Of a stretch of DNA of 64,000 nt, positions 22,980 to 31,261 are shown piece by piece. The notes below the pieces were generated by a model. It was not told where the DNA came from. It saw only the letters and a program-made list of their open reading frames with translations, and made no database searches. This stretch comes from Akanthomyces muscarius. Lineage: Eukaryota; Ascomycota; Sordariomycetes; Hypocreales; Cordycipitaceae. The position numbers and the translations under genes are program-made. Position 1 is the first letter of the stretch; every line of letters begins with the position of its first letter. The stretch is from assembly GCF_028009165.1 (NCBI RefSeq), contig NC_079242.1, positions 124,001 to 188,000 on the forward strand. The letters run 5' to 3'.

Positions 22980-24696
22980 TTACTCGGCAAAATGCAGTTT
23001 CAGCGGAACGCCTTCGCCGGGGCAGTTGGTCAGGCCCAGACCGTGCGACTCAGCCGGCAGCGTCGAGCCGTCGAGATCGTCGAAGCGCTGGAGCATGCGC
23101 ACCACCACGTACGTGATTTCCGTCAGCGCAAACTGCTGGCCGATGCAGATGCGCGGGCCGCCGTTGAACGGGAGGTAGTCCCAGCCGGGCCTGCGCTTCT
23201 CCCACCGCTCTGGGCGGAACTCGTCGGCGTCGGCGCCCCAAAGGTCGGTGCGATGGTGCATGACGTGGACCTGTGCGGGAGTTAGCATTTGAGGCAGCGA
23301 GGTGGGGGCCTTGGAGGAAACTGACTGAATATCCAATATCCTGCCCCTTCTTGACCAGGATCGGCGAACGTCCATCAGCACCGCCACCAAGAGGAAGAAC
23401 GGTATCCTTGACGGCGGAGCGGCCGTTCATGGGCACAATTGGGTATAGGCGGAGCGTCTCGTTGACGCACCACTGCAGGTACGACAGGTTTTTGAGGCCC
23501 TCAAAGGTAATGGGTTTAGGGTTGCGGTACGTGCCAAACTCGTCGACAATCACCTCGCGCAGGCGCTTGTAGATGTGCCGATTCTTGGCTTGGCCCATGG
23601 TGTAAAAGAACCAGCCAAGCGTCGAGGCGGTTGTGTCGCGGCCGGCAAGCAGGATGTTGATGAGCTGTGAGCGTAGCTCCACTGGGTCCGAGGTCTCCTT
23701 GGCAATAGCCTCGAGGAAGACGTAGCGCTCATTGTCCTCGGCCTTTTCACTCGTATTCCTCTGTCCATTAATCGCCTTTTGCACAAAATAGTCGATAAAT
23801 TCGTGGCAGATTCGCACGTCATTGTGAAACTCCTTGGTGTGGCCGATCCAGTAGTTGTTGCCGTAGCGGCCGGCAATCGCCAGCTGGTTCTGTGAGGCGT
23901 CAAAGGACGTCGCAAAGGCCGCCGCGTTTGTCGTGGCGTCGCCCTCGCGCCGCAGCTGGCTGTTGACGCTCTCACCAAACAGGAACTCGGTCGCCGAGTC
24001 GAGCGTGAGTCGGAAGAAGAGCGGCTGTAGGTCTACGGCCGCCGACCACCCCGTGCCCTTGTCGAGATTGGCGTCGAGCACCGTCATCAGGTTTTGCACG
24101 TGCGTCTCCTCGAGGGAAATGTCGCTGACTTGGCTGCGGACAAACTGGGGGCGCAGCATGGCGCGCGAGTGCTCCCACTTCTTGCCATCGGACGCAAACT
24201 AAAATGACCTCATATTAGCCTACACAAATCCTTCGGTCGCAGGGAGTATCAGCTCCCCGCCCGTCGTAGTGAAACATACAATGCCGTCGCCGAGTAGTGG
24301 CTTGAAATTTCCGATGCGGTTCTCGCCGAGGCTAAAGTCTTTGAAACTCGTCGCGAGAATTGTCTTGATGTTTTCGGGTTCGCATGTGAAGAGCACGTTG
24401 CGGAACAGCGGTGCGCTCATTTGAAAGGTGCCGACCTGGCGGCCCTCTCGCACCGACAGCCGCGCAAATTCCTGCCTTATCCAAATGGGCACGTTCTTCT
24501 CGCGCTGCGCCTTGAGGCCCTTCCTCATCAGGCTCAGGCCGGCCCAGTCGCCGCCAAAACCCCAAACGGCCGGCTTGCAGCCGAGGCGGGCCGCCGCGCT
24601 TCGGAATCTTATGTACTCGATGAGGCGTAAAAGGACAAAAGCTACAGCCAGCGACACCAGCAGCGCTGGAATGGAAATCACGGATAGTACCGCCAT
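22980..24696 (-). CDS. Cytochrome P450, CYP52-like (n-alkane/fatty-acid hydroxylase type)
   Basis: Heme monooxygenase of 526 residues anchored in the ER by an N-terminal helix ([16 protein letters not shown]). Three exons, 24696-24280, 24198-23326 and 23270-22980, all phase 0, with donors GTATGT and GTCAGT. Visible motifs are the I-helix [11 protein letters not shown]-helix ETLRLYP (ExxR), DEFRPERW, and heme loop [14 protein letters not shown] with the axial Cys. The [13 protein letters not shown] loop and the AGRDTT helix are typical of the CYP52 clan, which hydroxylates alkanes and the omega end of fatty acids. In insect-associated fungi such enzymes handle cuticle hydrocarbons, but the substrate here is inferred. 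It needs a separate P450 reductase. A TATA-like run at 24822-24830 lies about 130 bp upstream. Confidence 0.93.
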
Positions 24697-27102: not shown

Positions 27103-29182
27103 CTACCTGACAGGTATTATACAATATTGGACAAGAAATTCATGAAATTCCTTAGCAGTGTCGTGTCCAATACTGCGCAAGTAAGGCGGCCTGGCCGCCT
27201 CTGAAGCGACTACCTCGATGACTCTTCGTACGAGCCAGGCATACTCATCACTATATCTCTCAATACCACTTTTCTTTATCGCCTCACTGCTCAAATGACG
27301 CAGACTTTCTTTCCAAAGACTTTGCCACCGAACCACAGCTTTAAGTAATGCAGGAGCAGTCTGGCCGATGCTTAGGGACAAGTCTGCACTTATCACGACA
27401 CTACTCAGCCCTGCTATTTCGTCAATACACAATTCCTCAGAAATACCTAGAAGAGCTCTCTCATTCCTTACCTAGTATCACAATCATCAGATCTGATATG
27501 GAAAAGTGTTTGCCAGTGAGAGAGAGTTCGGCGGGCAATCCAGGTTCCTGCACCAAGCTCTGGATGCAGCCATGCACCGAGTATCGGTAAGATGGAATGT
27601 CATGCAGCTGAGATAATGTGACAAAATCGGTAGCATTTCTGCTATTCCAAATATCGAGCAAGCAGGGCATATCACCTGTCATTTCTCGCACCGAAACTTG
27701 TGGCGGCATATACAGCATGTTTGCCTGGTTCCAGTCAGCCATGGCCGTCCAGTATGCGATTCTATAATCATTGACTATTAGTGGGTTTGCCAAAATGAAA
27801 GGAGCAAGGAAGATACCTGATGCAGCTTTCTGTCTCGACAAACTGAAGCCAATCCGCACCAGCTTTGTGTGTGGTTGCAAATAGCCCCAATTTTCGAACA
27901 GCGGATACTAAAGCTGGGAGTCGAGCTGCTCTCGTTCTCTGGAGAGTCACAGCTGTGCTTGACATGAATTGTATCTGATACATTAGAATCGCAGCTTCTA
28001 GAGTCTCGAGCAGTTCCCTAGACCGATCATCTGACTGGACATTGGTCATCAGGTATTCCAACTGTCGGAAGACAAGTTCTTCCAAAAGCCGTGCTAGGCT
28101 GCGGACACACATGACGTTTTCACTCGTCGGCGATCGTGTAGAGCCTGCAAATGCGACCGCTAGCAAGAGTGCCGCAGAAGTGTCGTGTGAGCCAAACGAT
28201 GGTCGATGCACCAATGATATGTATCTATGGGACTGTTGAAAGTAGACAACAGAGAACATGATGACAGTCCTCGCCGAAAGAGCCAATTTTATATGATGTT
28301 CATCGAGTTCAGTGTGGTACGATGGATTGTGGGCAAGAAGCTGGCCGTGTAGAGAGCTGAGTCGGACAATGCTCGACTGGATCTTTCCTTCAAGCGTTTC
28401 AAACGCAGAAGGCGCGAATATGGGAGCCAGCTCTGCCATGCTCGCAGGTGGGCCGGCAATGCCAAAGTCATGTGAAGATGCCAACCCCAACTCGTGCAGG
28501 TCGAGTACAGAGCTGAGACTCCACAGCAAGATGTCGTCTTCCTGCGCGACAGCCTGGCCCCAGCCGATGGTGGCCACAGCGGCGGCGCCATCGATGTCAG
28601 GGTCTTTGTCGTCATTTTCGAATGATTCCAGCATGGTGCTAGCGGCGGGGTTCGTGAGCCGAAGCAAAAACCGCATGTCACATTGCGGAGCAGACGTCGT
28701 CGCCTCAATTGGCGATGGCTGGCGGTAGCTGCATTCTATCTGGCGAGACTGGCATCGATCGCAGGGTTGACGCTTGTCGCACGCCGATTTGCTCCGATGG
28801 CAGGCTTTGCAAGCTTTCGGTCGTCGCCCACGAGTGAGCATCGGCAGATCGTTGTCAGCATCTCTCTGTGGACATGTTTTGGCGTGCTTGCGGCAGATGT
28901 CACTACGTTTAAACTGCGTTAGAACCGGGGTACAATGGACAAGATTGTATGAGATGAAGTGACATGCCTTCTCGCGAACGTTTTGGGGCAATACCAGCAG
29001 CAGTGTCGGCGGTCTCGAGTATCTGATAGCTTAGAATTAGGTGTCGCGGAGCGAAGTACATTTGTCTGCCACTCACGAGTTGCAGTGTGCCGAGTCAGAT
29101 GGTGTTGGCGCGAAAACACCTTGCCGCAAACCAGACAAGGAAATTTACCGTCCATGGTCGAATCATTATTTCTTTTTGGCAT
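27103..29182 (-). CDS. Transcription factor with two C2H2 fingers and a Zn2Cys6 cluster
   Basis: Nuclear regulator of 615 residues, five exons: 29182-29077, 29022-28968, 28902-27817, 27761-27472 and 27413-27103; all phases close. Finger 1 is CLVCGKVFSRQHHLTRHTATH. Finger 2 is CWYCPKTFARRSDICRKH and is split by an intron. A binuclear cluster follows: ACKACHRSKSACDKRQPCDRC with the last Cys in RQIECSY. The remainder (YWTAMADWNQANMLYMPPQ and helices to the end) is the usual helical effector region of such factors. C2H2 plus Zn2Cys6 in one protein is a known fungal arrangement. Intron 2 starts with GC (AGAAG followed by GCATGT), the only way to rebuild finger 2. The gene is divergent from the PSST gene and so may control it. 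Its targets are unknown. Confidence 0.9.
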
Positions 29183-29452
29183 GATAGTCTCTTGAGGTTG
29201 GTGCTTGTTTGGCGGAAGTGTGGTGGGTAATGTCCGCCAGGTTCTGGCAGCTAAACTAGCAATCTGGCGGGTTATCTCCGGAAAGGATCATTCTACTACA
29301 CTGGGATGGGGCACACTTACGTTTACTCTCCAATAAATTGGAGTTGCAAAGGTTTCTACTCAGATGAAAAGAAATTCTGTTCTTCTCTTCTTCCTTTTTT
29401 TTTTTGCTTCTTTCAAATGATGGTCAAGTGGTGAAGTAAATACGCTTCACAC
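29183..29452. promoter_or_regulatory. Shared 270 bp promoter between the regulator and the PSST gene
   Basis: The two ATGs (29182 minus, 29453 plus) face away from each other across 270 bp. A pyrimidine-rich run at 29379-29412 precedes the PSST start. CGG half-sites that a Zn2Cys6 factor could bind are few (for example the CCG/CGG at 29277-29282), so autoregulation is only a possibility. Confidence 0.5.
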
Positions 29453-30261
29453 ATGGCATCTTTCCTAATGCATCGCGTTGCGCGTCGAGCCATCACAGGT
29501 CAGTACATTACAATTCTAAATACCAGGACTAGAGTCCGCTCATGACCAGCACTAAGCAATCTCATCTGTAATACAGGGTCACATTTCTTAGTACCTTGTA
29601 TCACAGTCTCTTCCCCATCATTGTTCGCACAACCCGAAAAGAGCATAGCGCAGTCGAACATATCTGTTGCATCTACGAGATGGGTTACGACCTCATCAAA
29701 CAAACCGATCGAGTCTGTAAATTCGGGAAAAGAGGATTCATCTGCCGCTGAGTATGCGCTGTACGTTTCGTGGTATCCATTCAAGCTCGAGTATATGCTA
29801 ATACATGCAGGACGACGCTCGACGCACTGGTCAACTGGGGACGTCAATCGTCGCTGTGGCCCCTCACGTTTGCTCTGGCGTGCTGTGGTATTGAGATGAT
29901 GCATGCATCTATGCCAAGATATGATCAAGACCGGCTCGGACTCATCTTTCGGGCTTCTCCACGGCAAGCAGACGTCATGATTGTTGCGGGCACCGTCACA
30001 AACAAGATGGCATCGGCGGTAAGGCAATGTTACGACCAGATGCCTGACCCGAAGTGGGTCATTAGCATGGGCAGCTGCGCCAACGGTGGAGGATACTACC
30101 ACTACAGCTACTCTGTTCTGAGAGGTGTTGATCGCATATTGCCCGTGGACGTCTATGTTCCTGGATGTCCTCCAACATCTGAAGCATTATTGCAGGGCGT
30201 ATTCTTGCTGCAAGCCAAGATGCGGCGAACCAAGGTTACTCGCATGTGGTATCGAAGATAG
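29453..30261 (+). CDS. Mitochondrial complex I subunit PSST (NDUFS7/NuoB type), divergent copy
   Basis: Subunit of NADH:ubiquinone oxidoreductase that carries iron-sulfur cluster N2 and lines the quinone pocket. Exons 29453-29498, 29577-29760 and 29811-30261 (donors GTCAGT and GTACGT) give about 226 residues. The start [16 protein letters not shown] is a plausible mitochondrial presequence. The four cluster ligands are present: the tandem Cys in [10 protein letters not shown], Cys in [10 protein letters not shown], and Cys in [10 protein letters not shown]. The core is otherwise clearly PSST ([32 protein letters not shown]). It departs from residues that are nearly invariant in eukaryotes: ALACCGIE for GLACCAVE, ASAVR for [17 protein letters not shown] for RGCDRIVPVDIY. 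This suggests a second, specialised copy rather than the housekeeping gene, but the genome must be checked. Confidence 0.88.
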
Positions 30262-31261
30262 GATGTTGGTTCAAGACTTGTTTTGCGATACGTCACATAT
30301 TCGTACTCTTTTTTACCAACAGTCATCTCTATAATCTAGCCAAATGAACTGCTTTGCACAAAATCGAAATCTGCACAAAAGAAAAATGGTAAATTCCGTA
30401 ATGACCTTTTGATCCTAGTCAGAATTCATTTGTAGCAAACGTAGAGACGCGTTGGAGTCAGCCTAGTTGGTTCATAATAGATTCGAACCCCTGACGTGAT
30501 CACTGGATCGGCAGTCGCCATCAAGGAAAGAGCGCATAAGGAGTACTAACAACCAGTAAGTTGGTGCCCAGCAGAGTCCAAACGAGTTGCGTCCAGTGCT
30601 GAAGAAGTTTCTAGCTAGTCACAGCGCATGGCTTAGGGATCGGAGAATTGTTATCAAAGTTGAAGGCTGAGAAAACAATAATCGCTTATGTACAAAATAA
30701 AGGTAGGCCGCTCCCATTACAGCCTTTGAAAACTCCAATTTATTGAAGAGTAACCGTAAGTGTGCAAGGCAATTAGCAGAGCCCGCGACGGCAGCGGCCG
30801 ACAGGGCAACTGCAAGTATTGTTTCCAAGAGAATCATGATGCCAATGATTAGCTTCCAGACTATCATGCGAGTGAAGAAAATGAATTTTTTCTCGTCGCT
30901 AGATCTACTTATACTATTATTTCACGGCCCCGAACCCATCTAGGACAGTCTCAGCCTGACAACAAACAAGCCATGATTAGCTGAGACCACTCAGAGCTGC
31001 GCCGCTTTTCGGTGCCTTTGGTACTGCAGAAAAAGAATACTGGGTAGAACAAAAATCAGGCTTGCAATCAGACTGTCGCATTTGTTCATAAATGTCGAAG
31101 TTGGCGCTACAGCTGCCGAGTGACTCATTCAAATTACTTACGCCAAAGAGTGCACAAATAGACAACCAATAGTCCCCGAGAAACAAGTCAAAAGCGGCAT
31201 ATAGAAACTCCGCCCCATCCAACCCCAAGCCTAGCCGTCAGCAACGCCTGCGGGGCTGCTC
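30262..31261. other. Intergenic, 1 kb
   Basis: Between the converging PSST and aquaporin genes. It contains a short tRNA-like T-arm on the minus strand near 30485 that does not form a full tRNA. No gene is supported. Confidence 0.5.

Follow-up and report, generated by a model that had tools for sequence, protein, structure and literature searches.

A second, divergent PSST-type complex I gene beside a putative regulator in Akanthomyces muscarius, and the old paralogue group in which it falls

The 64,000-nucleotide stretch of the Akanthomyces muscarius genome analysed here (the window) encodes what is very probably a working alternative version of PSST, one of the highly conserved core proteins of mitochondrial complex I. 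Judged by its sequence, this second gene, which we call alt-PSST, is a member of an old paralogue group that is widespread in filamentous ascomycetes. The best explanation that we can offer, at a probability of roughly 0.45, is that alt-PSST supplies an inducible and possibly inhibitor-tolerant subunit, a counterpart in complex I of the alternative SDHC of complex II. Similar second versions in many other moulds might let respiration go on despite complex I poisons.

An intact second PSST gene

The gene for alt-PSST, a second NDUFS7/PSST-type complex I subunit, lies at 29453-30261 on the forward strand and was modelled as three exons (29453-29498, 29577-29760 and 29811-30261) with GT-AG introns of 78 and 50 bp; the reading frame and splice sites are intact. 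Its 226-residue product matches the Pfam family PF01058 with 97 bits against a curated cut-off of 27, and the best match in the PDB, the PSST subunit NUKM (6gcs_K, E 4.9e-89), puts the identity of the gene as a PSST far beyond chance. All four cysteines of cluster N2 are present (C101, C102, C166 and C196). The N-terminus is presequence-like in composition, with no D or E in residues 1-35 and a net charge of +3 when K/R and D/E only are counted. A first-pass annotation of this DNA had described a complete PSST layout with a mitochondrial presequence and the four N2 cysteines, and these results agree with it.

Profile searches of the 36.2-Mb, 12-contig genome returned two PF01058 matches: alt-PSST and, on another contig, the canonical PSST gene (G000:C4:3245338-3245664), whose protein shares 96% identity with an entry from Cordyceps militaris and 95% with one from Beauveria. 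A canonical copy, which the first-pass annotation had suggested looking for, is therefore present, and alt-PSST is not the only PSST gene of its genome. The two genes share their intron layout. Intron 1 (29499-29576), following the presequence start in exon 1, has phase 1 in both, and intron 2 (29761-29810) falls in the identical codon, that of L in the YALT motif, in phase 2. The proteins are 73% identical over 176 aligned positions and about 80% identical over a 153-residue core, while the presequence region of alt-PSST is unlike the canonical one and its C-terminal segment (positions 204-219) is also divergent. These two divergent regions would suit a protein that had taken on a new function outside complex I, for example as an assembly-stage or signalling form. 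We consider this very unlikely, since such a protein would have no need to keep most of the quinone-tunnel and N2 residues, and yet they are kept (see below).

The other core genes tested, for the 49, 30, 51 and 24 kDa subunits, are each represented by one gene (PF00346, PF00329, PF01512 and PF01257, the last as two adjacent exon matches counted as one gene), and genome-wide profile searches found no second copy of any of them. Among the core genes tested, PSST alone is thus doubled.

An old paralogue group in filamentous ascomycetes

A protein search with alt-PSST scored 7996 candidates, of which the best 120 were listed. We took 113 of these as alt-type and four as canonical-type (P0072, P0091, P0098 and P0120); two were non-fungal (P0001 and P0004) and one, P0002, was the last exon of the window gene itself. 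Dropping the last three and adding the full protein of the window gave 114 alt rows. The 123 canonical rows comprise 118 new proteins from a search with the canonical protein, the four canonical-type matches named above and the canonical PSST of this genome. Each row went to the group whose search had returned it, apart from the four canonical-type matches, which were reassigned by eye; the column counts given below therefore describe the two groups and are no test of them. The top phmmer score, 431 bits, belonged to the 292-residue P0001 of Phytophthora kernoviae, yet its identity is 66% over 68% of the query; it is perhaps a fused or duplicated model.

Among the matches listed, canonical and alt-type copies occur together in at least 11 species, counting this one (species names follow the sources; the Pyricularia oryzae copies come from different strains). 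We take the named species with alt-PSST to be Pezizomycotina. As far as seen, there is no case of close relatives whose only PSST carries the alt-type residues. In a FastTree tree of 201 unique rows, all 109 alt rows fall in one clade with a support of 0.738, the next node having 0.937, and the nearest row to alt-PSST other than itself, among the matches listed, is P0019 of Purpureocillium takamizusanense (support 0.835). An IQ-TREE analysis of 65 rows, whose bootstrap had not settled, grouped 35 alt rows at 97/95 and 24 canonical rows at 90/57; with Thermomyces lanuginosus the alt group (36 rows) has 77/0. The sequence from the latter species, P0106, takes a basal, weakly supported place in the alt group and has a mixture of residues of the two types (SMPRYD with TLTNKM and RGCDR). 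The best IQ-TREE tree joins the canonical rows to two yeasts at 96/80, and the data do not reject a duplication postdating the split from the yeasts (p-AU 0.14). A recent local duplication, in which alt-PSST would fall among the canonical PSST genes of its family, was rejected (p-AU 0.008). The tree of both copies that had been proposed as a check thus shows the alt rows grouping together, and the earlier framing of the gene as a local oddity gives way to an old paralogue group with both copies in at least 11 species.

Alt-PSST evolves faster than its canonical partner. Across the 11 species the average difference between species is 13.5% of core positions for alt-PSST against 3.1% for canonical PSST, a ratio of 4.4, and the alt copy is the more divergent in 55 of 55 species pairs, which are not independent of one another. 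This rate also fits relaxed constraint, and alt-PSST could be an old paralogue that does little or nothing in this fungus. The third-position GC content of the gene (0.54 against 0.87 for the canonical gene, with 0.55 in the long exon of the adjoining regulator) points the same way, as do the C-terminal piece of that regulator, which could not be joined in frame, and, as weak evidence of absence, the fact that no named Cordyceps or Beauveria protein appears in the best 120 of the 7996 alt-PSST matches. Against this, the frame and splice sites have stayed intact over an old divergence, every one of the 114 listed alt rows keeps the N2 ligands and the adjoining divergent regulator has recognisable zinc domains. 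On balance we find a decayed or marginal gene improbable.

Residues kept and changed around the quinone site

Compared with canonical fungal PSST, the window protein carries G98A, A103G, P145S, L147V, C183V and V187L, each at a position fixed in 123 of 123 canonical-type rows. Four changes run through the whole alt group: M to L at 95 (111 of the 114 listed alt rows), T to M at 111 (113), L to V at 139 (110) and C to V at 183 (112). The signature L95, M111, V139 and V183 is complete in 107 of the 114 and none of its four residues occurs in any of the 123 canonical rows; in P0106 and P0111 fewer than three of the four are found. Other changes are frequent in the same 114 rows, namely A to G at 103 (80 rows), S to A at 130 (86), V to C at 150 (88) and R to K at 158 (87). 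The first-pass annotation had placed the changes at sites nearly invariant from fungi to mammals. Set against the canonical rows this is real for positions 98, 103, 145, 147, 183 and 187, and it is overstated in part: PDB chain 9iho_B, which we take to be from Komagataella, has V at both 139 and 183, and chain 8b9z_B, presumably from Drosophila, has L at 95 and A at 130. With these residues in a yeast and an animal chain, part of the signature is compatible with an ordinary complex I, and L95, A130, V139 and V183, as far as sequence comparison goes, need not alter inhibitor binding.

Nearly all quinone contacts are kept, and residues beside them have changed. The N2 cysteines, F97, M106, F123, R124 and R128 are kept in all 114 listed alt rows; W93 is found in 113 of them and M107 and I122 in 112 each. 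Subtracting 16 from the alt-PSST position gives the Yarrowia number (ungapped PDB-chain alignment), so that positions 93, 106, 107, 122, 123 and 124 correspond to W77, M90, M91, I106, F107 and R108, named as tunnel residues in the available text of PMC9503403. All six are present in the window protein, in which neighbours of the contacts are altered (95, 103, 104, 109 and 111) and the contacts themselves are kept. The conserved N2 ligands and tunnel residues would fit a protein still doing quinone chemistry in altered surroundings.

Several of the variable positions have been discussed in connection with inhibitors or enzyme state. Position 95 corresponds to residue 58 of mouse NDUFS7. According to the accessible portion of PMC7567858, the 58-60 stretch counts among the marks of the active state, and T59 lies near the chain of bound piericidin. 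The equivalent of T59, position 96, is T in 123 of 123 canonical rows and in the window protein, and S in 44 of the 114 listed alt rows. Position 104, where the window protein has I in place of V, corresponds to mouse V67, mentioned for an alternative acetogenin pose in the portion of PMC8861642 at hand. In Tetranychus, H92R in PSST is associated with METI resistance, with moderate resistance after backcrossing (PMC7469217 and PMC5569037, available passages). From the numbering and the primer sequences in the accessible text of PMC7469217, we infer that H92 is our position 108. This position is H in 123 of 123 canonical rows and Q in 12 of the 114 listed alt rows, these being P0019 of P. takamizusanense and eleven Aspergillus proteins, several from close relatives; with 11 of the 12 rows from Aspergillus, H92Q reflects few independent events. 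Three species are each listed with two different alt-type PSST proteins, Aspergillus sergii (P0079/P0082), A. pseudonomiae (P0068/P0086) and A. parasiticus (P0097/P0099), and one member of each pair has EMMQ at the METI position. M91I occurs in two of the 114 listed alt rows, P0019 and P0045. In Yarrowia, variants at Met91 gave resistance to DQA and rotenone at almost unchanged Vmax (PMC7567858, same portion). P0019, the nearest listed relative of the window gene in the tree, combines H92Q with M91I. In the window protein both H92 and M91 are ordinary, and since the listed quinone and inhibitor contacts are likewise unchanged, the sequence gives no clear sign of a resistant pocket. This counts against inhibitor tolerance as the explanation of the gene.

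The same residues bear on a second reading, in which alt-PSST is a condition-specific isoform with no link to inhibitors, switched by its regulator and differing in kinetics, ROS output or active/deactive behaviour. Such an isoform would serve during a stage of development, under low oxygen or while the fungus grows in a host. Retention of the catalytic residues and the pairing with a regulator suit it equally, position 95 falls in the stretch that marks the active state, and metabolic adaptation is offered as an alternative role of SDHC paralogues in the available part of PMC6941823. Changes at the METI site (12 of 114) and at Met91 (2 of 114 listed alt rows), and the two alt copies of some Aspergillus species, look more like a response to chemicals, but they are not decisive. 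We treat a purely condition-specific role as possible, if on the doubtful side.

A divergent regulator and an inverted repeat

Head-to-head with alt-PSST, across a shared intergenic region of 270 bp between the two start codons (29183-29452), lies a gene on the reverse strand (27472-29182; exons 29182-29077, 29022-28968, 28902-27817 and 27761-27472) encoding a putative regulator with a C2H2 finger, a second finger-like motif, a Zn2Cys6 domain and a middle region. Pfam detected Zn_clus (6.6e-7) and one zf-C2H2 finger (2.8e-7) on separate frames, which the spliced model unites; the second finger-like motif was read by eye in that model, and the second intron (28967-28903, reverse strand), which lies within it, appears to be GC-AG. 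A C-terminal piece at 27471-27106, also on the reverse strand, is in another frame and outside the joined model, and we found no acceptable intron that would join it in frame; a frameshift or an unusual intron is possible. The arrangement reported at first pass, an altered second PSST adjoining a dual-zinc transcription factor of its own, is thus what the models show.

A search with the 512-residue model, by a method that needs shared 5-residue words and can miss distant relatives, gave nine matches, namely the window protein itself, seven clear relatives and a weak hit from Rhizoctonia (2.7e-6, 30% over 23% of the query). P0243 of Purpureocillium takamizusanense can be aligned with the spliced regulator over the zinc domains and the middle region. 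In that species JDV02_006139 is a relative of the regulator (41% identity) and JDV02_006140 is an alt-PSST (88% over 69% of the query); because the two tags are consecutive and both are on contigs of equal length (2,964,418), the pair is probably conserved between two hypocrealean lineages, a view based on locus tags, without orientation, from one other species. That the neighbouring regulator controls alt-PSST seems to us rather probable.

Two 35-nt arms of an inverted repeat, 94% complementary to each other, bracket alt-PSST. The left arm (29311-29345, forward strand) lies within the shared promoter and contains a CCAAT/ATTGG palindrome (29330-29341), and the right arm (30731-30765, reverse strand) lies about 470 nt after the stop codon. 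Searches of the genome for a third copy (an 18-mer with up to two mismatches, and a DNA search with an 80-bp query) found none, and no target-site duplication was seen by eye, which makes a repeated element, and with it carriage of alt-PSST by a transposon, unlikely. The repeat may serve in regulation or be left over from the arrival of alt-PSST.

Genomic surroundings and biosynthetic genes

Pfam scans covered 40 of the window's 184 open frames of at least 100 residues and identified a cytochrome P450, transporters, an aquaporin-type channel, GH92, HsbA and other genes as neighbours, with no PKS or NRPS among them. In whole-genome searches no PKS, condensation-domain, DMATS or terpene-synthase match fell inside the window, in keeping with the first-pass statement that no PKS or NRPS is visible there. 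The nearest backbone genes upstream are a DMATS followed by a PKS with SAT, KS, AT, DH, ACP and TE matches (C2:74150-85429), which by its domains looks non-reducing. Further upstream of this pair lies a Fungal_trans fragment (L012:2709-3317), and together they make up a biosynthetic cluster toward the contig start. The nearest condensation-domain (NRPS) gene downstream, at C2:352021-362055, is about 198 kb off, and none of the five terpene-synthase matches in the genome is nearer than these backbone genes.

These positions bear on the suggestion, also made at first pass, that alt-PSST protects a producer at this locus, as the self-resistance gene of a cluster making a complex I inhibitor. There is some circumstantial material for it: a PKS and a DMATS upstream on the same contig, the P450 frame (23053-24198) about 5 kb from alt-PSST, the existence of fungal complex I inhibitors such as verrucosidin (PMC3675020, available text) and the Aspergillus PKS clusters described in the accessible part of PMC10734572, whose gene content includes a P450, two Zn2Cys6 regulators and an NADH-dehydrogenase gene of unspecified kind. 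The PKS, however, ends at about C2:85429 and alt-PSST starts at C2:153453, leaving a gap of 68 kb that contains genes for ribosomal L27A, an M61 peptidase, an eRF1-domain protein and Prp19. With the backbone genes this distant and housekeeping genes between, alt-PSST has no biosynthetic cluster adjoining it, and self-resistance of a linked cluster is not supported; we rate it very improbable.

A proposed role

The features of alt-PSST fit an inhibitor-tolerant or a condition-specific complex I. Under the explanation that we prefer, alt-PSST would be an alternative form of the quinone-site subunit that is imported into mitochondria, binds cluster N2 and takes the place of canonical PSST in complex I, its expression being turned on by the neighbouring C2H2-Zn2Cys6 regulator. 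The resulting enzyme would still reduce ubiquinone and may bind quinone-site inhibitors differently, as expected where residues beside the quinone contacts differ and the contacts are kept. The long retention of the gene would most likely be due to tolerance of natural complex I inhibitors from the environment, and inhibitor tolerance is our best single guess at its reason for being, held tentatively. More speculative, and in our view unlikely to hold in full, is the generalization that many filamentous ascomycetes keep alt-PSST as an inducible tolerance to complex I poisons, arranged in at least part of the Hypocreales as a two-gene unit whose dedicated regulator senses the respiratory block.

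That an old paralogue of PSST persists alongside the canonical gene, and in this lineage next to a divergent regulator, points to an ability of some fungi to exchange the part of complex I where quinone and inhibitors bind. If alt-PSST confers tolerance, it would be a standing resistance mechanism, worth checking for in any use or development of complex I inhibitors against moulds, and the group would offer a natural set of PSST variants for testing the workings of the quinone pocket.

Comparison with known systems

Among the papers listed by text searches of the open-access literature we recognized no report of such a PSST paralogue or of complex I self-resistance, with most subscription papers and other wordings outside its reach; this is weak evidence that the paralogue group is unreported. 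Relative to canonical PSST/NDUFS7/NUKM (PF01058), alt-PSST is alike in family, N2 ligands, the listed tunnel residues, its presequence-like start and the phase and order of both introns. It differs group-wide at 95, 111, 139 and 183 and often at 103, 130, 150 and 158, in forming a separate old group and in having a divergent regulator next to it.

The METI-resistant PSST of Tetranychus urticae (H92R; available passages of PMC7469217 and PMC5569037) is altered at what is by numbering the position that carries Q in the 12 listed alt rows noted above, whereas the window protein keeps H there, and in the mite a point mutation is involved and not a second gene. Among self-resistance duplicates of fungal biosynthetic clusters, the ALS homologue of the pts cluster (PMC12616698, accessible part) is, like alt-PSST, an altered second copy of an essential target; unlike such duplicates, alt-PSST has no adjoining biosynthetic cluster. 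Alt-PSST resembles in kind alt-SDHC (ZtSDHC3) of Zymoseptoria tritici complex II, also a quinone-site paralogue beside a canonical gene in a filamentous ascomycete (PMC6941823, available part). Alt-SDHC belongs to another complex, and its assembly and its role in resistance are proven according to the same part of that paper, whereas alt-PSST is known here from sequence; alt-PSST in turn has an adjoining divergent regulator, unlike alt-SDHC. If the proposed role is right, alt-PSST would be to complex I what alt-SDHC is to complex II, and might account in part for the varying sensitivity of fungi to complex I inhibitors.
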